Positions 6,370 to 16,757 of a stretch of 64,000 nucleotides of DNA are shown here, in pieces. Origin of the DNA: Enterococcus rotai (lineage in GTDB: Bacteria; Bacillota; Bacilli; Lactobacillales; Enterococcaceae). The notes below the pieces were generated by a model. It was not told the origin of the DNA, made no database searches, and saw nothing but the letters and a program-made list of their open reading frames with translations. The stretch is taken from NCBI RefSeq assembly GCF_001465345.1, contig NZ_CP013655.1, positions 372,001-436,000 of the forward strand. Direction: 5' to 3'. The position numbers were made by a program, and so were the translations under genes. Numbering within the stretch: position 1 is the stretch's first letter; each line of letters starts with the position of its first letter.

Positions 6370-6610
6370 GCCCTAAAATACTTTCGTATTTTAGGGCGTA
6401 TAAACAACTATACGTGGTACCACCTAAATTGTGTTTGAAAAATCCAAACACCGCTTCATTCGTGAGGTAACGATCACTACTCGAATCATTCTACTGAATT
6501 CAAATCATTGACTCCCAAGCTACCTTCTTACTGGTTATGTGAAAATCTTCCACCAAGTGATTTTCTCTCTATAACGATGCCAGTAGTACTCCTCTTGATC
6601 ATGGTCTTTG
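6370..6610 (-). promoter_or_regulatory. T-box riboswitch, tRNA-Val responsive
   Basis: On the minus strand the T-box sequence AGGTGGTACCACG (6413-6425) pairs with the tRNA acceptor end. It is followed by the terminator stem at 6370-6397 (GCCCTAAAATAC and complement, GAAA loop) and a T-rich stretch. Further upstream are the stem I elements, including AGTA-type sequence and AGAAGGTAGC. I read GTA at 6521-6523 as the valine specifier codon. The specifier choice is by eye. The T-box itself is unambiguous. Confidence 0.93.
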
Positions 6611-6614
6611 GTTT

Positions 6615-6644
6615 ATTTTAACATTGAAGTAAGCGATAAGTCAA
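6615..6644 (-). promoter_or_regulatory. Promoter of the valS T-box transcript
   Basis: TTGACT and TTAAAA on the minus strand are separated by 17 bp, just upstream of the first T-box helix. Confidence 0.6.
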
Positions 6645-6744
6645 TTTGAACTGATCTAGCTTTAAGCAAAAAATTTTCTCTCAAGTATTTCATTTCTATA
6701 TGCTGTGTGCTTTAGTAATAGATAGACTTGAAAGGGGAATTTAC

Positions 6745-7674
6745 ATGTTAGAGAAAATGAAATTAGAAGAGTATTTTGAATTTTGTCAATATCAAAAAAA
6801 GTTGGATAGTAAAACACTAAAAGCTTACAAAATAGACCTTCAACAATTTTTTGATTACGTTGAACAAACTGATATTGACCTTATTAACCGGTCAACGATT
6901 GAACAATATATACAATTTCTAGCTTGTACTTATAAAACGACTTCTATTAAAAGAAAATACGCTTCTTTAAAAACGTACTTTAGCTATTTGGTATATATGG
7001 ACTTTATTTCCCTAAACCCATTTACTAATATAAGACTCCAGCTGAAAGAAGAGACAATATTACCAAGAGTCTTTTCTTTAGATACATTGGAACAACTTTT
7101 GAAAACGGCTTATTCAGAACATTCCAATCCACTAAACAAACAATCTTCTTTCCAAAAGTTTTCCGCAGTTCGAAATATTGCTGTTTTAGAGCTTCTATTT
7201 TCAACTGGAATCAGAGTTTCTGAATTATGTAATTTGACCATGGAAAATACAGATTTGACGAATCAAAAAATTTTAATCAAAGGAAAAGGTTCCAAGGAGA
7301 GAGTTTTATATTTATCTAATAAAGAAGTTATCACTGCGATGAGAAAATATATTGTTCTTCGTGATCACTCTAAGTCTAATTGTCCCTATTTTTTCATTAA
7401 TCGCTTAGGAGATAGGCTCTCTGAACAGTCTGTTCGTACCATTATCCAAAATATTGGAAAAAAAGCCAACCTCTCGATTCATTTAACTCCTCATATGTTT
7501 AGACATACATTAGCTACTACTCTTTTAGATGAAGGAGTGGACTGTCGGTATATTCAAAGCATTTTAGGTCATAGCTCTATAAAAACGACGGAACGATATA
7601 TTCATGTGAGTTTAACAATGCAGAAAAATGTTCTTTTGAACAAACATCCTAGACATCATTTTTCATTTGGATGA
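6745..7674 (+). CDS. XerC/D-type tyrosine recombinase, probable DNA invertase of the adjacent segment
   Basis: A 309-residue site-specific recombinase with an N-terminal SAM-like (core-binding) domain (about residues 5-90) and a C-terminal catalytic domain. All catalytic residues are present: R157 (TGIRVSE), K182 (GKGSKER), H250 and R253 (LTPHMFRHT), H276 (LGHSS) and nucleophile Y285 (TTERYIHV). I chose the ATG at 6745 because AAAGGGG precedes it; the 15 extra upstream codons have no ribosome binding site. It is not a housekeeping XerC/D by context: it ends 34 bp before a perfect 59-bp inverted repeat whose second copy lies 4.3 kb away. The simplest reading is that it inverts that segment. 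It could instead be the integrase of the whole island. Confidence 0.9.
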   Translation: MLEKMKLEEYFEFCQYQKKLDSKTLKAYKIDLQQFFDYVEQTDIDLINRSTIEQYIQFLACTYKTTSIKRKYASLKTYFSYLVYMDFISLNPFTNIRLQLKEETILPRVFSLDTLEQLLKTAYSEHSNPLNKQSSFQKFSAVRNIAVLELLFSTGIRVSELCNLTMENTDLTNQKILIKGKGSKERVLYLSNKEVITAMRKYIVLRDHSKSNCPYFFINRLGDRLSEQSVRTIIQNIGKKANLSIHLTPHMFRHTLATTLLDEGVDCRYIQSILGHSSIKTTERYIHVSLTMQKNVLLNKHPRHHFSFG

Positions 7675-7703
7675 ATTTGAGAACGTGTCTACTCTGATAT
7701 ACT
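7675..7703 (+). promoter_or_regulatory. Extended -10 promoter just outside the left inverted repeat
   Basis: TGATATACT (7695-7703) is an extended -10 element. ATTTGA lies 17 bp upstream at the end of the recombinase gene. The predicted transcription start falls at about 7710, which is the first base or two of the inverted repeat. The promoter is therefore outside the segment that would invert. No comparably good promoter is visible outside the right repeat. Confidence 0.5.
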
Positions 7704-7708
7704 TCCTC

Positions 7709-7767
7709 ATGAACAAAGGATAATAAGCAATTATCTAATGTTTAAAAAAGGAGTATTTTATGGAAAA
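7709..7767 (+). repeat. Left copy of a perfect 59-bp inverted repeat (IRL)
   Basis: Identical, base for base, to the reverse complement of 12026-12084. It contains GATAAT-aagca-ATTATC (7719-7735), an inverted pair of arms around a short spacer like a tyrosine-recombinase core site, then the ribosome binding site AAAAAAGGAG, the ATG of the ATPase gene and its second codon. The repeat ends inside codon 3. Identity stops sharply at both ends. Confidence 0.95.
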
Positions 7768-10270
7768 TCCCAATCTTTTTGATTTCCCTTTTGTTGATAG
7801 AAAAAGCGAAAGAAAAGTTATTGCAAAATTTCTAGAGTATAATAAAAAAAAGCAAGTTTTATGGATAACTGGGAAACATGGTGTAGGAAAAACTTTTTTT
7901 ATAGAAAAGGTATTTGCTAGCAATATTCAAGCAGAGTGGACATTACTTCATCTTAATTTTTTAGATAATATGAATGATGATCTTTATCTTAATGAGTTTA
8001 TTAATCAACTTCAAGTAATATCAAAAAATAAATTCTTTGACTTTATAAAAAGTAATTATAAATCTGCTATAAGTTTAAGTAAAAATCTGATTAAAGTAGC
8101 TTTAGCTGTCAAAGATCTTACTGATTTTGGAATTACTAGTTTGTTAGCTTCTATAGCGGGAGGATTAATTGATAAAAAGGATAAACCACACTCCCTGCCT
8201 ACTGTTATTGCTGATTATATACAAGCAATTATTAAAAAAAATAAAAAAATTGTAATTGTATTTGATAATTTAACAAAATATCCTCCTACATTGTTAAACA
8301 TACTGGAAACTATAATTGATAAAAATATTGGTAATGAAAATATTAGATTTGTGGTTATAACAACAGAAGAGATGTTAACCAATAGCCCAGAACATATAAC
8401 ATTCATAGCCGAAAAAATTTCAAATATTAGGCTAGATATAAAAGAATTTGATGAAAATCATTTTTTTATAGAAATGCTTAGTAATGCTTATGAAATTGAT
8501 TGCAATATTAGACAAGATGTAGAGAAAATATTTGATTACTGTGGAGGACATCCAAACAAATTTAAAAGTATTCTCCATCGCTTATATTATGATCATGGAA
8601 TTGAACATATCGATCGAACAAAGGCAATATTTGTTACAGAGAAACTAGAAAACTTATTGTTAAAAGAAAGTATTGATTTTGATTATCAAAAACTTCCTTA
8701 CGAGCAGAAGTTAGTACTATCTATTATTTCTATTTGGAGTACCCCGATACCTTTTAAGTTATTAGACGATTTATTTAACTATATATTTTCGCATAATAAC
8801 TTTACAGATAGTTATTTGATAACTATTACAGAAATTAAACAAGCCATTAGGGAATTGCTAAATCTAGATATATTAACTCAAAAGCAATTTTGTCAACAAT
8901 CGTGTATAGGGTTTAAGCAAGATATGTCAAATGATAAAATATTTAAAATTATACATTACGAAGATAAAACAAAAGTATTCTTTTATTATTCAATCTGCTT
9001 CGATTTCTTAAATTCTCTCTCTGAAGGTAGTGAGGAAGAATACTGGAAAGCAAATAGAAGTTATTTAAATGCATTGTTCTCCTATGGCGCTAATAATGAG
9101 AGCTGGCCGGTTATTAATTATAATTATGCTTGTCAATTGGATGAAAGAGGGAACTATTATACTGCATTAACTATATTTGAACGTCTTCATGAAAGGATTG
9201 GTGAACTTCCCAAAGAATGGCTACTTGTATTAGCTGGAAATTTATTTTCTTGTGGTGCCTATGATAGATGTGAGACTTTGCTATTGTATGTAAATAGTAA
9301 CTTTATTGATTTATTAACAGATTATGACAAATCGCAGCTATATTCCATGCTTGCTCAAGTAAAAAGCCAAAAATTTGACCATGTATCATCACTAAATTAT
9401 ATTGATAAAGCTCTTGAGTCAACTCAAAAAGATTCGTCAGAACAAATTAGACTATTGGCGCAAAAGCAAACAATTTTATTTCTAGCACCAAATAAATTTC
9501 ATGAAGCAGAGGACCTTTTTGAGCTATTAATAAGTTCTGAATCTGATGATCCTGCCATGATTAATGTCTATCAAACTGCTATGGATTTTTGCGAAGGAAA
9601 CTATTCATTAACGTTATTAAGAAAAGGATTAAAACTAGCAAAACATTATATCCCTCATGATGTGAAAGTTTCAAAGATTATTCATAATAAGGGTTTTGAA
9701 TATATAAGATGTTCTGATTTTGAAAAAGCAAGAGAATTAACTGAAGAGGCAAGAAAACAATTTGAAGGAACATCTCTTCATTATCAAGCTTATTCTTATA
9801 ATAATTTAGCTACAATAGAAATGAAAAAAGAACATTGGGAGAACGCTGTAAACTATCTAATGAGCGCACTTATTTGGAATAAAAGTAATTATCTAAGACT
9901 GGTTATAGATGTAAATCTATTTATTTGTTTTTCTGCCCTTAATGATTCAAGGGCAGAAAAATATAAAGCAGATTTAATAAAAACTATAACAGAAGATAAT
10001 GATCTAGAGGATAGAATTTATAAAAAAATCTTAGTCAATCTTGCAATCGTTGAACAAAAAAATAATAATTTAGATTATGCGCAAGAATTTATAAAGTTAT
10101 ATAAACCTAGATATGAAAATGATGTTCCTTCAGGTAAATATCGATTTATTAATTTATATAATCAATTTTTTTCTGATAAATTACCCACAGTAAATTTACC
10201 TGAAGATACATTTGATTACTATTCGAACATGGCATTTGAACCGTGGATAGTTACCCTTACTTGTAGTTGA
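7760..10270 (+). CDS. STAND/AAA-like ATPase with C-terminal TPR-like repeats
   Basis: An 836-residue cytoplasmic protein that I cannot assign to a named family. The N-terminal P-loop domain has Walker A GKHGVGKT (residues 38-45), Walker B VIVFDN (165-170), a sensor-like strand FVVITTEE near 202, and CGGHPNKFKS near 260, a glycine/proline motif of the kind seen in Arch-ATPase/STAND proteins. A winged-helix-like region follows. From about residue 450 to the end are helical repeats of TPR character (for example ALTIFERLHERIGELP and FEKARELTEEARKQFE). There is no N-terminal effector domain and no transmembrane segment. Many STAND proteins are signal sensors, including antiphage ones, but that role is only inferred. 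The gene is visibly more AT-rich than its neighbours. Its stop overlaps the convergent ATP-grasp gene by 14 bp. Its start codon lies in the inverted repeat. Confidence 0.75.
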   Translation: MENPNLFDFPFVDRKSERKVIAKFLEYNKKKQVLWITGKHGVGKTFFIEKVFASNIQAEWTLLHLNFLDNMNDDLYLNEFINQLQVISKNKFFDFIKSNYKSAISLSKNLIKVALAVKDLTDFGITSLLASIAGGLIDKKDKPHSLPTVIADYIQAIIKKNKKIVIVFDNLTKYPPTLLNILETIIDKNIGNENIRFVVITTEEMLTNSPEHITFIAEKISNIRLDIKEFDENHFFIEMLSNAYEIDCNIRQDVEKIFDYCGGHPNKFKSILHRLYYDHGIEHIDRTKAIFVTEKLENLLLKESIDFDYQKLPYEQKLVLSIISIWSTPIPFKLLDDLFNYIFSHNNFTDSYLITITEIKQAIRELLNLDILTQKQFCQQSCIGFKQDMSNDKIFKIIHYEDKTKVFFYYSICFDFLNSLSEGSEEEYWKANRSYLNALFSYGANNESWPVINYNYACQLDERGNYYTALTIFERLHERIGELPKEWLLVLAGNLFSCGAYDRCETLLLYVNSNFIDLLTDYDKSQLYSMLAQVKSQKFDHVSSLNYIDKALESTQKDSSEQIRLLAQKQTILFLAPNKFHEAEDLFELLISSESDDPAMINVYQTAMDFCEGNYSLTLLRKGLKLAKHYIPHDVKVSKIIHNKGFEYIRCSDFEKARELTEEARKQFEGTSLHYQAYSYNNLATIEMKKEHWENAVNYLMSALIWNKSNYLRLVIDVNLFICFSALNDSRAEKYKADLIKTITEDNDLEDRIYKKILVNLAIVEQKNNNLDYAQEFIKLYKPRYENDVPSGKYRFINLYNQFFSDKLPTVNLPEDTFDYYSNMAFEPWIVTLTCS

Positions 10271-11288
10271 AATCGATGATTGGAAGAGAATATCTTTTAA
10301 GCGCAGTATTTAGTATTTTAATTAAATAAGTGTTTGTATTGATTGAATGACTAGCACTAATAAGTCCTAGTTCAGAAGTTTCACTTAGCACTGGATTAGG
10401 GCTTGCTTCTATAAAATATAAAGAGCGATCTGTCAGCCTGTAATCAAATCGAGCATAATCAAAGATATCTAATTCTTTAAAAATTATTTGAGAAGTTGAC
10501 TTTATTAAATCAATTTGTTCAGGAGTCAGTTTTTCATCAGCCAATTCTAGTTTTCTTTTTCTTGAAGATTTTTCTTGAATTCCCATAAGTTCTTGATCAA
10601 AATAATATTTCCCATTCAAACTAGTGATAATAACCTCAGATACATCGATTTCTTTTTTTTGTCCGATTAAAAAGTTACTTATCTCGTAACCTTTAATAAA
10701 TTCTTCTATGAGTATTTCTTTAAATTGTTCTAATAATTTGAAAAGTAGATTGTGTGCGTCTTGTTTGTTGTATACTATATTATCTTGACTAATTCCTATA
10801 GATGAACCCTCATTGTTTGGTTTTAAAATAATTGGATATTCAAGTTCATCTGGTTTAAATTCGTCTAAAGACCTAACTAAATAACCTTTTGAGCAAAGAA
10901 CATTATTTGAAAGTAAAAAACGTTTAGTATAAATCTTGTTTGCAGTTAATAAATAAGTAATTGCTTCTGAACCAACATAAGGAACATTCAAAAGTTCAAA
11001 TAAAAAAGCTGCTTGTCCTTTTCTACTTTTTTGAGTCAATCCATCAGATAAGTTAAAAAAAATTGTATTTGGAAATTCCTTTTTTGATTTATAGGCATCT
11101 ATTAGAGCATGAATACCACCAAAAAAATAACACTCTAGTCCAAGGGAAATTAATTTATTCTTCAAATAATGAACACTTGCTTTGCTTGTATGATCATTAT
11201 ATATATGATTTGTTCCAAAACCTTCATTTTTAAAGTCCTCTCGAACGTCTGCGACAATAGCAACTTTGATTTTATCCATATCATTCAC
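10257..11288 (-). CDS. ATP-grasp ligase related to D-Ala-D-Ala ligase
   Basis: A 343-residue ATP-grasp enzyme, expected to join a carboxylate to an amine through an acyl phosphate. Visible motifs are the ATP-binding strand YPIILKPNNEGSSIGIS (151-167), EFIKGYEIS (196-204) and the Mg-binding segment RFDYRL...FIEASPNPVLS (280-302, with E294 and N297). It resembles D-Ala-D-Ala ligase in overall plan. However, it sits in an accessory segment behind a methyltransferase, so a dedicated small-molecule or peptide ligation is more likely than cell-wall synthesis. The start overlaps the methyltransferase stop by 8 bp; a second ATG at 11279 is also possible. The substrate is unknown. Confidence 0.8.
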   Translation of the reverse strand: MNDMDKIKVAIVADVREDFKNEGFGTNHIYNDHTSKASVHYLKNKLISLGLECYFFGGIHALIDAYKSKKEFPNTIFFNLSDGLTQKSRKGQAAFLFELLNVPYVGSEAITYLLTANKIYTKRFLLSNNVLCSKGYLVRSLDEFKPDELEYPIILKPNNEGSSIGISQDNIVYNKQDAHNLLFKLLEQFKEILIEEFIKGYEISNFLIGQKKEIDVSEVIITSLNGKYYFDQELMGIQEKSSRKRKLELADEKLTPEQIDLIKSTSQIIFKELDIFDYARFDYRLTDRSLYFIEASPNPVLSETSELGLISASHSINTNTYLIKILNTALKRYSLPIIDFNYK

Positions 11289-12033
11289 ATCCCTTTTCTA
11301 ATTGAAGAATTGTATAGCCTTCATATTTACTAATGGGTTTACTTTTTGAAAAATCATTTATTAAATGTTGGTAGCCTAGTTCATATTCCTCAGAATCAAG
11401 AAGTACAAAAGCTGATATTGATTTGGTATTTACCTTGGCTAGAAAATCTTTTTTTATTGGTTCTATAACGTGCTGTTCAATTCTAGTCTCGGAAAGAAAA
11501 TTCCAGTTATTATTTTGAGCAACAGATAGTAATTTAGATATTGGATGGAATCTTTTCTTATCAATAGTTGCAATAGAAGGAAAGTATTTTATCCAATATT
11601 TTTCTTCTAATTGAGAGGGAGATTCAGTGCATATGACTAGTTTACAGCCTACTTTTGCTATTCGATCTAATTCGGTAAAAAAAAGAGGCAAATCTCTAAT
11701 ATGGTGAATAACATCAATGCAAAAAATACCATTAAAAAAAGAATCTTCAATAGTTAGTGGTAAAGAGTTAAAATGTTTAAAATGTATTTTTTTGGAACAA
11801 AAAGTAGCATTTTCAATCATTTTCTGTGAAGTATCTACACCCCAAAAATTAGCTTCATGATATTTTTCAAGCTCAATTAAATAGTTTCCAGTTCCGCATC
11901 CATATTCTAAAATACGATCATTTTTAGAAATGTGTAACTGACGACAGAGTAAGTCATATATCGTTTTATTTATCTGTCTATTTGCTAAATAATCATCTGC
12001 ATATTTATCATAATTAACATGATATTTTTCCAT
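11281..12033 (-). CDS. Class I SAM-dependent methyltransferase
   Basis: A 250-residue protein with a Rossmann-fold methyltransferase core (Methyltransf_11/25 type). Motif I is EYGCGTGN (43-50), the acidic residue after strand 2 is in GVDTSQ (65-70), and the post-motif CIDVIHHIRD lies near residue 105. GGAG for translation and the ATG lie inside the right 59-bp repeat. The ATP-grasp gene overlaps its end, so the pair is translationally coupled and probably acts on one substrate. No precursor peptide gene is seen beside it. There is no strong promoter directly upstream, so transcription may come from the AAA operon reading leftwards. Confidence 0.82.
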   Translation of the reverse strand: MEKYHVNYDKYADDYLANRQINKTIYDLLCRQLHISKNDRILEYGCGTGNYLIELEKYHEANFWGVDTSQKMIENATFCSKKIHFKHFNSLPLTIEDSFFNGIFCIDVIHHIRDLPLFFTELDRIAKVGCKLVICTESPSQLEEKYWIKYFPSIATIDKKRFHPISKLLSVAQNNNWNFLSETRIEQHVIEPIKKDFLAKVNTKSISAFVLLDSEEYELGYQHLINDFSKSKPISKYEGYTILQLEKGCE

Positions 12034-12084
12034 AAAATACTCCTTTTTTAAACATTAGATAATTGCTTATTATCCTTTGTTCAT
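12026..12084 (-). repeat. Right copy of the perfect 59-bp inverted repeat (IRR)
   Basis: Reverse complement identical to 7709-7767, with the candidate core site at 12058-12074. It supplies the ribosome binding site and first codons of the methyltransferase gene. The outer edge is 20 bp from the stop codon of the 160-residue protein gene. Confidence 0.95.
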
Positions 12085-12104
12085 TTTTATTTAAAAAAAA
12101 TCTT

Positions 12105-12587
12105 CTATCCTTTAACAACTGAAACTGATCCACTATCACTCACCGCTCTGCAACAATCGCTATAAACTTCAATAAATGCGTAAGCTGGGTTCATCGCTAT
12201 AGTTCTGGCTTTTTCCATGCCATTTGGTACAGTCTCACCTTTCTTGTAGTGCTCTATAATTCTGCCACTAATGTCAACAGTGTGAACCTCGTAAGAAGCA
12301 CCTAAATAACATTTTGAAACATACCCTAATAGCAGACCTGATAACTCTACCTCGGGAAATTCTTTAGCAATTGCTCCCAGAATATCCTCTACCTTACTTT
12401 TTGCAATGGTAGCATTTCCACTGTCTAGATGGCTAAAGTTATCCAGATATTCTTTACTACGCTTACGCCTTAACAATTTTTCGATTTGAGCATCTGTCCC
12501 GACTGGTTTCAAGTTACTTGTTGTATTAACACTAAAAATTGAATCAGTTTGTCTTTCAGTTGTTCTATTAATCAATGGTTTTGGCAC
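12105..12587 (-). CDS. Hypothetical protein, last gene of the AAA operon
   Basis: A 160-residue protein that I do not recognise. It starts at GTG with AGGAG 9 bp upstream. Residues 1-60 are polar and probably disordered, with a basic patch EKLLRRKRSKEYLDNF. Residues 65-160 look like a compact alpha/beta domain with three cysteines (one near 92 and a CC pair near 145). There is no signal peptide or membrane segment. It follows the Ycf46-like ATPase by 15 bp and is probably a partner of it. Confidence 0.7.
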   Translation of the reverse strand: MPKPLINRTTERQTDSIFSVNTTSNLKPVGTDAQIEKLLRRKRSKEYLDNFSHLDSGNATIAKSKVEDILGAIAKEFPEVELSGLLLGYVSKCYLGASYEVHTVDISGRIIEHYKKGETVPNGMEKARTIAMNPAYAFIEVYSDCCRAVSDSGSVSVVKG

Positions 12588-12602
12588 TCTATTTCACTCC
12601 TA

Positions 12603-14177
12603 TTAAACTAAGACTTTCCTTGTTTTTTGTGATTGTTGCTCCTTCATTGCGACTTCGCTTCCAATAGGTTTTCCAGATGCTGGAACTGCCCTTGATTTTC
12701 CCCATTCTCTGATCGATTCTATTTTTTCTGGACTTGTTTGAGATAGCGGGACAACATTTTGAAATATTTCTAGAATAATTGTTTCATCTAACCTAAAATT
12801 ATCTTGTGCCAGTTTATTGTAGGCCAGCTCTCTTACCGTAGATTCCAAATCAGCTCCAGTAAATCCATTCGTTAATTCGACGATTGAGTCTGCTAATTGA
12901 CCTTCAAAATCCAGTTCCAAATACTTACGCATGTATATAGAAAGAATATCTTTTCTTTCCTCTGCCGTTGGTAAATCAACAAAAAATAGCTCATCAAAAC
13001 GACCTCGACGTAATAATTCTGAAGGTAGCAAACTAACATCGTTTGCTGTTGCAACAACAAATACTTGTTTTTTACTTTCTTGAAGCCAGAATAGAAATTG
13101 CCCTACCATCCTTGTAGACACCCCTCCATCATTACCAGATGTAGCGCCAGAGAGTCCTTTTTCAATTTCATCTATCCATAATATACAAGGTGAAACATTT
13201 TCAGCTGTCGTTAAGGCATCTTTCAATTGTTGTTCAGATTGCCCTACATAACTTCCCTGAACGGTTGCGAAGTCTAATCTGTACAGTGGCAATTTCCAAT
13301 TTGCAGAAATCGACTTAGCTGAAAGTGATTTACCACATCCAGGTACTCCAACAAGCAAAATCCCTCTAGGCGATTGCAATCCTCTTAATTTCATTTCTGC
13401 TCTTTTCTCAGGGGTTAATAATGTTTTTTTTATATCCAACCATTTTTTTAGTCCTTCTAACCCACCAACATCTTTTACACTATCTTCAACTTCGATTTTC
13501 TCTAAACCTGAAATATCTGAAAATAAGCGGTCTTTCGCAAACCTTACTTCATCCATATCTGATTTTTTTATCGATTTATTAGCAATTAACGAAGAAATAA
13601 TATTTTCAGCTTCAATCCGAGTAACTCCTGATAATAAAGATGCGGCTTCACGAACATCCATATCATCCCATTCAATTAAAATCTCTGATCGATATTCATC
13701 AATGAACTCTTTTATAATCTTATACATGTCCTCTTCATCTGGTAAATCAACCTTAATCATCATGCCTAACCTTTTCAGCTGATTCCAAATAGGATTCGTT
13801 GAAAAGATAACGATTGAACCACCCGTTTCATTTGCTAAAGTTACTAAATCTAAAAGTTGTTTTGCTTCAGAATTATCATTGGATAAATCGGGTACTTCTG
13901 TTAGTATAAGTGTCAGATTCTGTTTCTTTTTCATTTGTTCACTCATAAAATCTATCGCTGCATAATAGGATTTATCTTCTGTTAAAAGTTGTTCACTTGT
14001 TAATTCATAAATTCCTTTTGATAATGTATGAACATAGAAAGGTAATGCCAACTCTTCGGAAACACCTTCTAAGATTTCCAACGTTCTTGCTCGTTCAATC
14101 GTATTAATTACCACTAACGGAATACGCGCAATTGAATACCTTCTCATCAAATCTTTGCATTCATTTATACTCCCCAT
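12603..14177 (-). CDS. Ycf46-like AAA+ ATPase
   Basis: A 524-residue cytoplasmic AAA ATPase resembling the Ycf46 family. It has an N-terminal RecA-like half without a Walker A motif (about 1-200), a small helical linker, then a classic AAA module with Walker A GVPGCGKS (277-284), Walker B CILWIDEIEK (331-340), sensor 1 ATAND and the arginine-finger segment LLRRGRFDELFFVDLP. Such ATPases remodel protein complexes, but the client is unknown for this family. AAAGGAG precedes the ATG. It lies third from last in a tight operon with two small proteins, a zinc-ribbon protein and a coiled-coil membrane protein, all likely to act together. Confidence 0.85.
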   Translation of the reverse strand: MGSINECKDLMRRYSIARIPLVVINTIERARTLEILEGVSEELALPFYVHTLSKGIYELTSEQLLTEDKSYYAAIDFMSEQMKKKQNLTLILTEVPDLSNDNSEAKQLLDLVTLANETGGSIVIFSTNPIWNQLKRLGMMIKVDLPDEEDMYKIIKEFIDEYRSEILIEWDDMDVREAASLLSGVTRIEAENIISSLIANKSIKKSDMDEVRFAKDRLFSDISGLEKIEVEDSVKDVGGLEGLKKWLDIKKTLLTPEKRAEMKLRGLQSPRGILLVGVPGCGKSLSAKSISANWKLPLYRLDFATVQGSYVGQSEQQLKDALTTAENVSPCILWIDEIEKGLSGATSGNDGGVSTRMVGQFLFWLQESKKQVFVVATANDVSLLPSELLRRGRFDELFFVDLPTAEERKDILSIYMRKYLELDFEGQLADSIVELTNGFTGADLESTVRELAYNKLAQDNFRLDETIILEIFQNVVPLSQTSPEKIESIREWGKSRAVPASGKPIGSEVAMKEQQSQKTRKVLV

Positions 14178-14190
14178 AACAGTTGCTCCT

Positions 14191-14631
14191 TTAATTTACT
14201 TTATGATTTTTAACTATACTTAACATCTTTCCAGAGTAATCGCTTTTAGCACTATCTTCTAATGACTTTTGCATATTATCAGCATGCTCTCTCACTAAGG
14301 CTTGAAAATGTTGTTGCTCATTTTGAGGAATCGCAGGAATTGTCACTACTTTTTCAATCTGTTGCAATTCTTTTCTAAGGCCTAAAAGCGCTTGAATGTA
14401 AGTAGCTTCGTTTCTCATACCACTTGCTTGGTTTTTATGAAACTTATCAGTAGCACAAACCAAGCGATAATTCACAACATCAAACAATTGCTTTGTAAAC
14501 CGTTCTGAAACTCCTGATTGCCATTCTATTGTCCCAAGTTTCATAGCTTCTAGCACTTCATTATCATTACATGCATCTTTTAATAGTTGAAAACATTCTA
14601 CCCATTCTTTATAAATTGCTGGACTTTTCAT
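14191..14631 (-). CDS. Hypothetical helical protein of the AAA operon
   Basis: A 146-residue, mostly helical soluble protein without recognisable motifs. Its ATG overlaps the stop of the zinc-ribbon gene in an ATGA arrangement, showing translational coupling. The region ATYIQALLGLRKELQQIEK near the middle is amphipathic. It is probably a component of the complex served by the AAA ATPase encoded next. Confidence 0.7.
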   Translation of the reverse strand: MKSPAIYKEWVECFQLLKDACNDNEVLEAMKLGTIEWQSGVSERFTKQLFDVVNYRLVCATDKFHKNQASGMRNEATYIQALLGLRKELQQIEKVVTIPAIPQNEQQHFQALVREHADNMQKSLEDSAKSDYSGKMLSIVKNHKVN

Positions 14632-14825
14632 CGCTTTCTTTTCCTTCTTACTACGACTGTCTCGGGTGGAACAACATCCCAGTCTGGTAACCCCATAGCA
14701 AATGGACTATTTTCAGGTTCATTTTTCAACTCGCTACTTGGAATTGTAGTGAGTTGTTTCTCACAGTTATTACAATAAGTTGAAGCCTCATTTATTATAT
14801 TTTCACACTTTAAACATCTCTTCAT
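14628..14825 (-). CDS. Small zinc-ribbon protein
   Basis: A 65-residue protein with an N-terminal CxxC...CxxC zinc ribbon (RCLKCENIINEASTYCNNCEK, here split as C4/C7 and C18/C21) and a basic C-terminus (VVVRRKRKR). AGGAG lies upstream of the ATG. It is translationally coupled to the next gene. Short zinc ribbons of this sort often act as adaptors or nucleic-acid binders; the role here is unknown. Confidence 0.75.
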   Translation of the reverse strand: MKRCLKCENIINEASTYCNNCEKQLTTIPSSELKNEPENSPFAMGLPDWDVVPPETVVVRRKRKR

Positions 14826-14836
14826 TTTTTATTCTC

Positions 14837-16567
14837 TCACTCCTCTATTTTTATTCGACGAATCGATCCTGATAATTTTTGCACATACTGATCTGGCGAA
14901 ATTTGTTCAAGATAATCGATTACTTCGTTTCCTCTACCGTCAGCCAATTCGAACTCCTGTCTAAAATCAACAATTTCAGCTAAAATAGCACGAATAACTT
15001 CTTTACCAGTTATAATCTGCTTTTCGTATTCACTTTTCACTTGTGCTCTCACTTGAGCCATTCTCTTTTTATCACTGGCAGAACTACTCGCTACCCAAAT
15101 ACCAGCAATCACTGCTAAAACTCCGAATAAGGGGTTACCTGCTATCATCATCATCAAGCCAATACCGCCGATCACAGCACCAATTTGCAACCCATATTCA
15201 CGAATAACTGGTAAGACTAAACCAGCAAGTTTCTCGTCTCTTTCAGATGCTACAAACTGCTCATAATCAGAAAGTATCTCTTCTTCACCACTGCCATCAG
15301 TTGATGTAAAGATAAATTTATTTACTTCACACTGAATTTCAATCGGAACCTTAGCTCTATTTTCTGCTGTCACATCATTATACGCATTGATGATCCATTC
15401 TTTTGATAATGCTATTGCAAATTTTTGAGTAGAAACACTTGCACCAGAATTTTCTGGCTTCATAGCAGCATCAGTCAATAATTGCGAGAAGTCTTTCTTA
15501 ACAGTAAAATTTGATTTTTCTACCTGAATTCCTCTTTTCGCCGCATCATCGTCTCCATTATGGTCAATAATTAGTTCATTTAATCTTTCCTGCTGCCTAA
15601 ATGGAAGTTCTTCCTCATCAAATTCACTGACCAACGTAAAAAGGATATCATCTAATCGCTCTACTAACTTTTTCTTTGAAGCTTCTTTATTGAAAATTCC
15701 TTGGAAGTAGTCCAAAATCACTTCATGTAAATTTGCCCCCTTTAATACAGTTTCTAATTCAAACCAAGTAGTACTATATTTCTCTAAATACGGGTAATTT
15801 GAAGTTAGTTCAACTGGAGTATGTAGTTTAATGGCTTCTGACCATTGGATAATCAACTGTTCTTCAAAACCAGCTTTAGCAGAAATATTTTCAAGCCAAT
15901 CCATTAATTGTCTGGATATCATCCCTTCTGAATCCATACCTAATAATCCACTTGCGAAGGCATCGATAATCACAATCGTTTCTCTGTTCAACTCTTCTTC
16001 ATTTTGATTCGCAAAATAACGTTGTGTCCATTTCAAGCTAGCAGCTTTTCTATCTGCTCTTCGACAGATCAAAGCAAATAACAAAGATGTCTTCTCATCA
16101 TCTCGGCGAATCGCTTCTCTGACTGCCCTTTCTGCTAATTCTTGTTTGTTACTTATCCATGCAGAAACAGCGACTAAACATGGAGCTAACCAATATCCTG
16201 GAGCCGCCAGCATTAATTCTTCCGTTGCTGTTTCTATAGTTTCTTTTCTTACAATCTCTAAATCATCTGCTTGTAAAACACCCGTTGCTGTTCTCCGTAT
16301 TTCTCCGTAATGGCCAAATTTCTTTTCAATTTCTTGTCTAATTTTTACTAATCTCGTTTCGGCCAACTCTATCTTATGTTGTTTGTTTGCCTGTTGTACG
16401 TAGTCATGAAATTCTTTAGCCAATTCAGCTAATTCTTGATAGACAACCTGCACGTTTCCATCTACCGTAGAAATCTTTCCATTCATTGCATCAATATTAT
16501 TATGAATAACAGATAAATTATTTTCTATTGCACTTAAATTTGCCGTACTTATAACTCTTTCAGCCAT
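14837..16567 (-). CDS. Coiled-coil protein with a C-terminal membrane hairpin
   Basis: A 576-residue protein that I do not recognise by name. Residues 1-60 are a coiled coil of heptad-like repeats (SAIENNLSVIHNNIDAMNG). A helical middle domain follows, with two hydrophobic segments near residues 480-520 (LQIGAVIGGIGLMMMIAG and FGVLAVIAGIWVA), then a charged helical tail. I moved the start to the ATG at 16567 because AGGAGG precedes it; the longer upstream reading has none. As the first gene of a five-gene operon it probably supplies the membrane platform or filament on which the AAA ATPase acts. Confidence 0.75.
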   Translation of the reverse strand: MAERVISTANLSAIENNLSVIHNNIDAMNGKISTVDGNVQVVYQELAELAKEFHDYVQQANKQHKIELAETRLVKIRQEIEKKFGHYGEIRRTATGVLQADDLEIVRKETIETATEELMLAAPGYWLAPCLVAVSAWISNKQELAERAVREAIRRDDEKTSLLFALICRRADRKAASLKWTQRYFANQNEEELNRETIVIIDAFASGLLGMDSEGMISRQLMDWLENISAKAGFEEQLIIQWSEAIKLHTPVELTSNYPYLEKYSTTWFELETVLKGANLHEVILDYFQGIFNKEASKKKLVERLDDILFTLVSEFDEEELPFRQQERLNELIIDHNGDDDAAKRGIQVEKSNFTVKKDFSQLLTDAAMKPENSGASVSTQKFAIALSKEWIINAYNDVTAENRAKVPIEIQCEVNKFIFTSTDGSGEEEILSDYEQFVASERDEKLAGLVLPVIREYGLQIGAVIGGIGLMMMIAGNPLFGVLAVIAGIWVASSSASDKKRMAQVRAQVKSEYEKQIITGKEVIRAILAEIVDFRQEFELADGRGNEVIDYLEQISPDQYVQKLSGSIRRIKIEE

Positions 16568-16757
16568 TTTCGTCCTCCTAATTCCATTTTTTCTCAATTC
16601 AATTTTAACACAAATAAACAACATTTTATAATTAATTTTCCCTATTTTATAAAACAAAGAAAACAAATAAATTAAAAACATTGACATATCAAGTGTTTAA
16701 TGTGAAGAAAATACATTTTTTGATTTACATTCTATTTAACAAAATTATCAGTATAGA

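Follow-up and report, generated by a model that had tools for sequence, protein, structure and literature searches.

Exchangeable or invertible DNA segments bounded by recombination sites are known from several described systems. The pdif modules use the host recombinases XerC and XerD and asymmetric dif-like sites, integrons are tyrosine-recombinase platforms that capture cassettes at sites, and in Thoeris, which needs both of its partners, a TIR enzyme makes a signal for a SIR2 effector. Here we examined positions 7709 to 12084 of a 64,000-nt stretch of the Enterococcus rotai genome (NZ_CP013655.1, positions 372,001 to 436,000; hereafter the window), where a sequence-only reading had proposed a phase-variable DNA inversion. 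We consider it reasonably probable that this segment is an invertible, exchangeable cassette of two gene sets, seated in the socket of an adjacent Xer-like recombinase and probably serving in defence. The evidence, which comes from sequence comparison, lies in the anatomy of the segment, the co-occurrence of site and recombinase, private spacers, the boundaries of cassette swaps, opposite orientations in relatives, and joins of one segment end to two flanks in two assemblies.

The window segment resembles the dif (pdif) modules of Acinetobacter in that inverted sites bound an exchangeable module, as was found here, but it differs from them in having a dedicated, adjoining recombinase gene and two site arms that are alike, and the cassettes described here are mostly convergent and two-sided, many of them of immune type, and occur on chromosomes and plasmids of several phyla. 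Site-specific inversion at inverted repeats is a feature shared with the Ureaplasma UU172/UU171 element, in which two genes are reported to alternate (PMC3047005), and with the RecV switches of C. difficile and hsdS inversions. Invertible switches flip surface antigens, promoters or specificity genes, whereas here whole exchangeable enzyme/sensor pairs are involved, and in many of our loci promoter-like elements stand on both sides. Compared with integrons, the window has two inverted, near-palindromic sites around a single segment and no cassette array. Thoeris-like pairs were found as cargo in two sockets (L235 and L067), the window cassette not being Thoeris, and the Thoeris literature examined contains no description of it as invertible. 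Among the papers listed from the open literature, judged by title and start of abstract, we found no description of this combination. Within that scope the element appears to be an undescribed variant, a two-part cassette that can be inverted and exchanged and that brings its own recombinase. In the way it would work it stands nearest to dif modules and two-gene invertible switches, and it is neither a housekeeping XerC/XerD system by score nor an integron array.

The features of the cassette and its recombinase gene are as follows (ORF, open reading frame; RBS, ribosome binding site; G012 and G015 are genomes of the same genus).

6745..7674, + strand: tyrosine recombinase gene, Xer-like, about 309 aa; Pfam Phage_integrase (PF00589) at 6.1e-42
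7709..7767, + strand: left inverted repeat, containing the core (7719-7735) and the RBS and start codon of the STAND gene; flank homology to G012/G015 ends at 7735 (blastn)
7760..10270, + strand: STAND-type P-loop NTPase with TPR repeats, 836 aa; Pfam ATPase_2 at 1.9e-11, KAP_NTPase at 1.3e-8 and TPR_12 at 8e-8; Walker A GKHGVGKT
10257..11288, - strand: ATP-grasp ligase, 343 aa; Pfam Dala_Dala_lig_C at 2.7e-17
11281..12033, - strand: S-adenosylmethionine (SAM)-dependent methyltransferase, 250 aa, first gene after the right site; Pfam Methyltransf_31 at 5.9e-15
12026..12084, - strand: right inverted repeat, containing the core (12058-12074) and the RBS and start codon of the methyltransferase gene; homology to G012/G015 resumes at 12058 (blastn)

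The two repeats are 59 nt each, 100% complementary and separated by 4258 nt; since the second-longest inverted pair within the 12 kb examined reaches only 36 nt at 72%, a chance origin was ruled out. Both arms carry AAAAAAGGAGTATTTTATGGAA, the RBS, ATG and second codon that serve the STAND ORF on one side and the methyltransferase ORF on the other, and both carry the core GATAAT-AAGCA-ATTATC, in reverse copy on the right, whose near-symmetric arms (GATAAT/ATTATC) give the sites the appearance of short near-palindromes. The converging ORFs, ending at 10270 and 10257, overlap by 14 bp, and 34 bp separate the recombinase stop at 7674 from the left arm. The sequence-only reading had claimed the perfect repeats, the start signals common to two opposed genes, the distance to the recombinase gene, the core inside the repeat and the overlap of the gene sets, and every one of these held. 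Across the 3,746,111-bp genome, the 18-bp core occurs with at most one mismatch in one forward and one reverse copy.

In the mechanism we propose, the window recombinase would catalyse recombination at the 17-bp core GATAAT-N5-ATTATC, which is inverted at the two ends of 7719-12074. Because the 5-bp spacer is identical at both ends, recombination would invert the segment, and because an RBS and start codon lie just inside the site for each gene set, both proteins would stay intact in either orientation. A flip in the window strain would change expression by exchanging the outside transcription units, namely the recombinase gene and a four-gene AAA set, that drive the STAND-TPR gene and the methyltransferase/ATP-grasp genes. 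The same sites would permit the replacement of cassettes between sockets with the same spacer, and the methyltransferase and ATP-grasp enzymes, together with the STAND-TPR protein as sensor/effector, would form one two-part defence or conflict system.

By its sequence, the window recombinase is a full-length, Xer-like tyrosine recombinase. Its best NCBIfam model, XerC, scores 230.7 bits against an equivalog cut-off of 335.15, and the other comparison with a housekeeping XerC/XerD equivalog is likewise below cut-off (219.2 against 329.6 bits). The R/K/H/R/H/Y positions, which we take to be the catalytic residues, are invariant in 9 of 9 aligned relatives. A plain housekeeping Xer protein was rejected on these sub-cut-off scores and on the finding that none of 26 control recombinases has strict sites nearby. 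A tree of 57 recombinases with an arbitrary root (23 from the 80 loci of the survey described below, 11 others and 23 control Xer proteins) splits all 34 socket recombinases from the 23 controls by a branch with 100/98 support, and sets a second socket branch (Paenibacillus, G021, G005 and G013) apart from the main one.

We compared 22 genomes of the genus, among which G000 is that of the window strain. Close recombinases (63-100% identity) are present in four of them (G000, G012, G015 and G016), the next matches reaching at most 37%, and GGATAATAAGCAATTATC, the 18-bp core when one mismatch is allowed, is found in the same four genomes, as one inverted pair in each. G012 and G015 have repeats of 48 bp (100%), and those of G016 are 52 bp long (96%); the sequence from core to start codon varies between genomes (being alike in G012 and G015), and within a genome the two ends match over 21-32 bp. 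In the window it is the STAND gene that lies next to the recombinase; in G012, G015 and G016 it is the enzyme side. Since the G016 proteins are homologous to those of the window (STAND 43%, ATP-grasp 55% and methyltransferase 59% identity), G016 holds the same type of cassette, and orientation differs between homologous cassettes; comparing relatives that carry the recombinase, as the sequence-only reading had advised, thus uncovered no orientation fixed throughout. The cargo of G012 and G015 is an ATP-grasp protein with a different TPR protein (22-23% identity to the window over part of the proteins). Their flanks are 81-89% identical to those of the window, this homology stopping at 7735 and resuming at 12058, the inner edges of the cores, and no blastn match at 1e-10 was found between the cores; homology that ends at these edges indicates that the cassette was exchanged at the site.

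Two accounts would make less of the window sites than the invertible cassette does. In the first, which we hold to be quite improbable, the system works in relatives and is locked in the window strain, for instance by a silent recombinase: G000 shows one orientation, as this would have it, but the recombinase is full length with its presumed catalytic positions conserved, and the repeats are identical over 59 bp, past the core. In the second, the repeats are a passive duplication kept alike by gene conversion, and orientation changes through rare homologous recombination. The identity that runs past the core and varies between genomes is what gene conversion would give; against it, several repeats measure only 18-30 bp, and sites with private spacers recur by unrelated flanks and follow the recombinase, so that we regard this account as very improbable indeed.

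The co-occurrence of site and recombinase extends to a survey of the best 80 of 569 confirmed relatives of the recombinase, which are 41-49% identical to it and lie mostly in Clostridia. A site of the GATAAT-N5-RTTATC type is present within 600 bp of 49 of the 80 recombinases (0.5 predicted by shuffles), and at a strict cut-off in 48 of 80 loci versus 0 of 26 controls. With a loose cut-off three controls also showed a site (L005, L006 and L007); as two of these (now L234 and L235) are further systems, the controls as first chosen were not free of such loci. Where a strict near site and a strict far site were both present, in 16 loci, 18 of 18 far sites carry the spacer of the near site, 16 being inverted and 2 direct (both in L102). 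It is on this far-site test that the spacer rule rests, since the 31 site pairs that we tabulated were chosen via repeats already found; 22 different spacers occur among those pairs. The end genes both face inward in 28 of 30 segments with ORFs, and their 3' ends often overlap. The window segment shows the same combination of inverted sites, identical spacer and recombinase alongside.

Individual loci of the survey depart from this layout in various ways. The direct sites of L102 (8943-10181) are separated by about 1.2 kb, and each has a further site in tandem with it; two or three tandem sites with differing spacers stand at a segment end in L069, L091, L096 and L130. In L119 (2139-2295) a pair of inverted sites comes after the recombinase with only 140 bp between them, which may be a socket without cargo or else an invertible element of small size, and in L083 (11049-11654) an IS200-like transposase gene lies inside the segment between paired sites. 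On viral contigs, three recombinases of 44-47% identity (L131-L133) fall within the 80, others being lower; in one of these (L131, 9308-12677), a 126-kb IMG/VR contig with a 47% recombinase, inverted sites are 3.4 kb apart and the gene layout looks less regular. A viral origin was rejected; the three phage records with 42-47% matches are unannotated fecal scaffolds.

Signs of inversion itself come from the way assemblies break at these loci. Of the 80 loci, 22 break off no more than 250 bp downstream of the recombinase, two of these within its gene, versus 20 ends over the next 27 bins of 250 bp. In G402 and G400, two metagenome-assembled genomes of goat-gut Lachnospiraceae, the recombinase contig and a second contig start with an identical 141 bp and then continue into different flanks. 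This common stretch consists of 124 bp of segment end, including an ORF start (which in G400 resembles by eye the GT2 start of L068), plus the core; one segment end joined to two flanks implies both orientations. In Lacrimispora amygdalina src4, titled an isolate, the whole segment was assembled as a separate contig of 3528 bp that carries the private site at either end. Two flank contigs run 5 and 100 bp beyond this site before they stop, although the perfect repeat spans only about 24 bp. The invertibility that the sequence-only reading had proposed therefore gains from the opposite orientation in G016, from the co-occurrence and private spacers, and from the two-flank joins in two relatives; inversion within the window strain is what we infer from these.

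The same layout was found on plasmids, in the five records first examined among 25 listed by a tblastn search: a megaplasmid of Streptococcus salivarius, a plasmid of Paenibacillus and three of Aliarcobacter. The S. salivarius plasmids carry three cassettes on one backbone, homology stopping within about 10 bp of the core.

S. salivarius NU10: membrane protein/polyprenyl synthetase cassette; that of S. equinus is 99.8% the same
S. salivarius LAB813 and SALI-10: methyltransferase/hypothetical protein cassette, the two being identical here
S. salivarius ICDC2: TPR-STAND/serine hydroxymethyltransferase (SHMT) cassette

Beside this plasmid socket lie pezAT toxin-antitoxin genes (L049, L211 and L213). 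Between the plasmids of Aliarcobacter M830MA and A. faecis, the recombinases are 98% identical at the DNA level and the flanks 90-91%, and the cargo is ATP-grasp/ATPase in the former versus GNAT/methyltransferase in the latter, with homology stopping within 1 and 20 bp of the core. The ATPase gene of M830MA (L047, 1937-4407) is in two overlapping reading frames, possibly through a frameshift.

A second branch of sockets within the genus is marked by the site CCAAATAATTTRTAGTTATTTGG, present with up to two mismatches in 9 of the 22 genomes, none of them among the first four; a backwards control pattern gave 3 matches too, so single matches need context. In G005 (L235), between perfect 29-bp repeats, the cargo is Thoeris-like, comprising a ThsA with SIR2-STALD (3.7e-100) and a TIR/ThsB protein (1.6e-9). 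An SHMT/STAND-TPR pair is found in G021 and also in G002, where the SHMT is short (296 aa), and an ATP-grasp protein with a STAND-type partner in G013 and in G009, the partner in the latter having no Pfam match and being assigned by 24% identity to a Paenibacillus protein. The polyprenyl synthetase and 330-aa protein of G003 resemble the pair of a Streptococcus plasmid (32%, and 25% over 102 residues). In G013 and G002 the flank gene is common to both (92% over 149 aa) and the recombinases are related to each other (82%), indicating different cassettes in one place; homology at the DNA level persists for 17-19 bp inside the sites and then stops. G011 and G019 have one site beside the recombinase, followed by the flank gene, and no cassette; at the locus where G002 and G013 hold cassettes, the recombinase of G019 (L281) is decayed, with a single site left. 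In G007, two site-bearing contigs (C3, with the recombinase, and C5) both end 77 bp past the site, and in G009 the segment makes up a contig of 3987 bp that has a site at either end, while its flank contigs reach 74 bp past the sites.

These swaps could also be read as the sole purpose of the sites, which would then be a mobility device for cassette exchange as in dif modules, with inversion a neutral by-product. The swaps at sites in four comparisons, the single cassette-less sites of G011 and G019 and a convergent design that tolerates either orientation all agree with such a device. We nonetheless think it rather unlikely to be the whole account, as the record of Lacrimispora, titled an isolate, also breaks at the site and suggests frequent inversion, and as exchange alone leaves unexplained why the recombinase stays beside the socket.

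What inversion would do depends on transcription from the flanks. The recombinase gene reads into the left repeat and the AAA gene set into the right one, and no terminator-like site was found within 6600-12700. The outside elements of the window are as follows.

7695..7703, + strand: TGATATACT, inward-reading extended -10-like element beyond the recombinase-side site, at a distance of 15 bp from the core; score 8.0; weak
12105..16687, - strand: flanking four-gene set encoding proteins of 616, 146, 524 (AAA ATPase) and 160 aa; outside the cassette, reading into the right site

We graded the -10-like element as weak because sigma-70-type matches in 6600-12700 are not in excess over shuffles (32 against 34.1). 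A scan for extended -10-like elements up to 60 bp outside the sites of the 31 tabulated pairs, whose rows are partly non-independent owing to near-copies among the flanks (three from S. salivarius, two from Aliarcobacter), returned inward elements on the distal side of 15 of 31 (shuffles 3.1) and on the recombinase side of 9 of 31 (shuffles 2.1). These promoter-like elements do not amount to proof, but they favour a socket from which both gene sets are driven and in which a flip swaps their drivers, over a simple on/off switch.

The latter would be classical either/or phase variation, in which one flank is transcribed and the cell makes either the STAND protein or the methyltransferase and ATP-grasp enzymes. 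Inversion machinery with start codons at the sites fits this scheme, as does the presence of a promoter-like -10 in the window on the recombinase side only, and there is a precedent in the Ureaplasma UU172/UU171 element, which is reported to alternate two genes through inversion (PMC3047005). However, many loci have inward promoter-like elements on both outer flanks, and the AAA gene set of the window is directed into the distal site, with no terminator-like sequence found there. Thoeris-like pairs, moreover, occupy such sockets, and alternation would disable them because Thoeris needs both partners; by analogy, this cargo points to both gene sets being driven. On balance we deem either/or expression unlikely. 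Of the phase variation proposed in the sequence-only reading, inversion is well supported and either/or expression is only one possible outcome of it, promoter-like elements lying outside both sites in many loci. That the cassette is exchangeable as well, and its architecture widespread, lay beyond what that reading could show.

Besides the near-copied rows of the promoter scan, several observations weigh against an invertible cassette with two driven gene sets. A single orientation was seen in G000, and the distal flank of the window has no extended -10-like element (best score 5.5). Outward controls of the scan gave 6 of 31 (shuffles 2.7) and 1 of 31 (shuffles 1.5), one of them raised. In G402 and G400, where the segment is seen from its ends alone, a perfect inverted repeat of at least 141 bp reaching into both genes is a formal alternative to two orientations; in the 31 tabulated repeats, perfect inner matches reach at most 108 bp (in L083, where the match stops short of the gene starts), and the next is 39 bp. 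No site of the pattern lies within 600 bp of 31 of the 80 surveyed recombinases, many of these loci being cut short, and 12 of them have at least 5 kb on both sides, among which sites overlooked by the test are present in L106 and L130 only. An end gene reads outward in L054 and L057, and the segment of L106 has no ORF of 80 aa. The ATPase-like proteins of L031, L032, L046 and L079 are without the Walker A pattern searched for, and none of the PADLOC models matches the window STAND or ATP-grasp protein.

Defence function is suggested by the kinds of genes that face each other. Recurrent pairs, whose members beyond those domain-scanned were assigned by BLAST, are ATP-grasp/STAND, GT2/large STAND, GT2/TIR-like, ATP-grasp-radical SAM/pentapeptide, GNAT/methyltransferase, SHMT/STAND and TIR/SIR2-STALD. 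In the 12 ATP-grasp/STAND sockets, the enzyme side lies by the recombinase in 8 (L031, L032, L033, L047, L057, L079, L278 and G009) and the STAND side in 4 (the window, L046, L050 and L116). Many socket pairs oppose an enzyme (ATP-grasp, SHMT or glycosyltransferase) to a STAND-TPR or TIR protein, and two are Thoeris-like, the second being L067 (ThsA at 1.3e-100, ThsB weak at 0.0085). By analogy to these ThsB/ThsA pairs in like sockets, the window cassette is most likely a two-part defence or conflict system. It gave no TIR, SIR2 or STALD match in Pfam or PADLOC, and so is not Thoeris.

The window STAND protein has both a P-loop NTPase domain and a repeat region; its AlphaFold model is poor (predicted local distance difference test 52.3), and no match to solved structures was found up to E 0.1. 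The closest solved structure to the ATP-grasp protein is Ddl (3r23, 6.3e-14). The ATP-grasp protein falls below the cut-off of every D-Ala ligase NCBIfam model shown (best 93.6 against 245.65 bits), and Pfam matched only the ligase C-terminal domain, so we do not class it as a D-alanine--D-alanine ligase. The methyltransferase matches PADLOC mad2 at 1.5e-16 over residues 10-145, covering only the methyltransferase part of a 492-position model.

A more general, and tentative, possibility, somewhat short of an even chance in our estimate, is that Xer-like recombinases run two-promoter sockets as a general platform, of which the papers listed from the open literature give no description. Its immune cassettes, convergent and in two parts, would place an enzyme that modifies or acts on small molecules opposite a STAND-TPR, TIR or SIR2 sensor/effector; cells would flip them, and genomes would trade them. 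If so, genes for ATP-grasp, SHMT, glycosyltransferase, GHMP kinase and prenyl synthase proteins would mark a set of uncharacterised defence systems, in which the sensor on the opposite side perhaps reads new signal molecules or modifications. Such a platform would connect reversible DNA inversion with the spread of bacterial immune genes, two usually separate subjects, and would make testable why the partners of an immune system should swap promoters. A recombinase with paired GATAAT-N5-RTTATC-type sites and a private spacer would offer a sequence handle for new two-part defence systems, any gene pair in a socket being a candidate.

Some minor features were recorded in the STAND proteins and around the cassette. 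The extreme C-termini of the STAND proteins are alike in L069, L084, L114 and L127 (LTPYLW, LDSRFW, LDPRIW and LDPRMW), and a near-C-terminal likeness is seen in the window, L033 and L116 (FEPW, FEPW and FVPW). The idea of an enzyme acting on the STAND C-terminus found no further support and is not claimed. The flanking four-gene set is present in G012 and G015, with different genes in its place in G016; its AAA protein matches PADLOC IetA at 6.5e-32 but lies far under the cut-off of the NCBIfam anti-phage ATPase model (81.4 against 510 bits), and its other three proteins have no Pfam families. Upstream of valS, at 6389-6611 on the - strand of the window, lies a T-box leader (Rfam RF00230, 119.3 bits).

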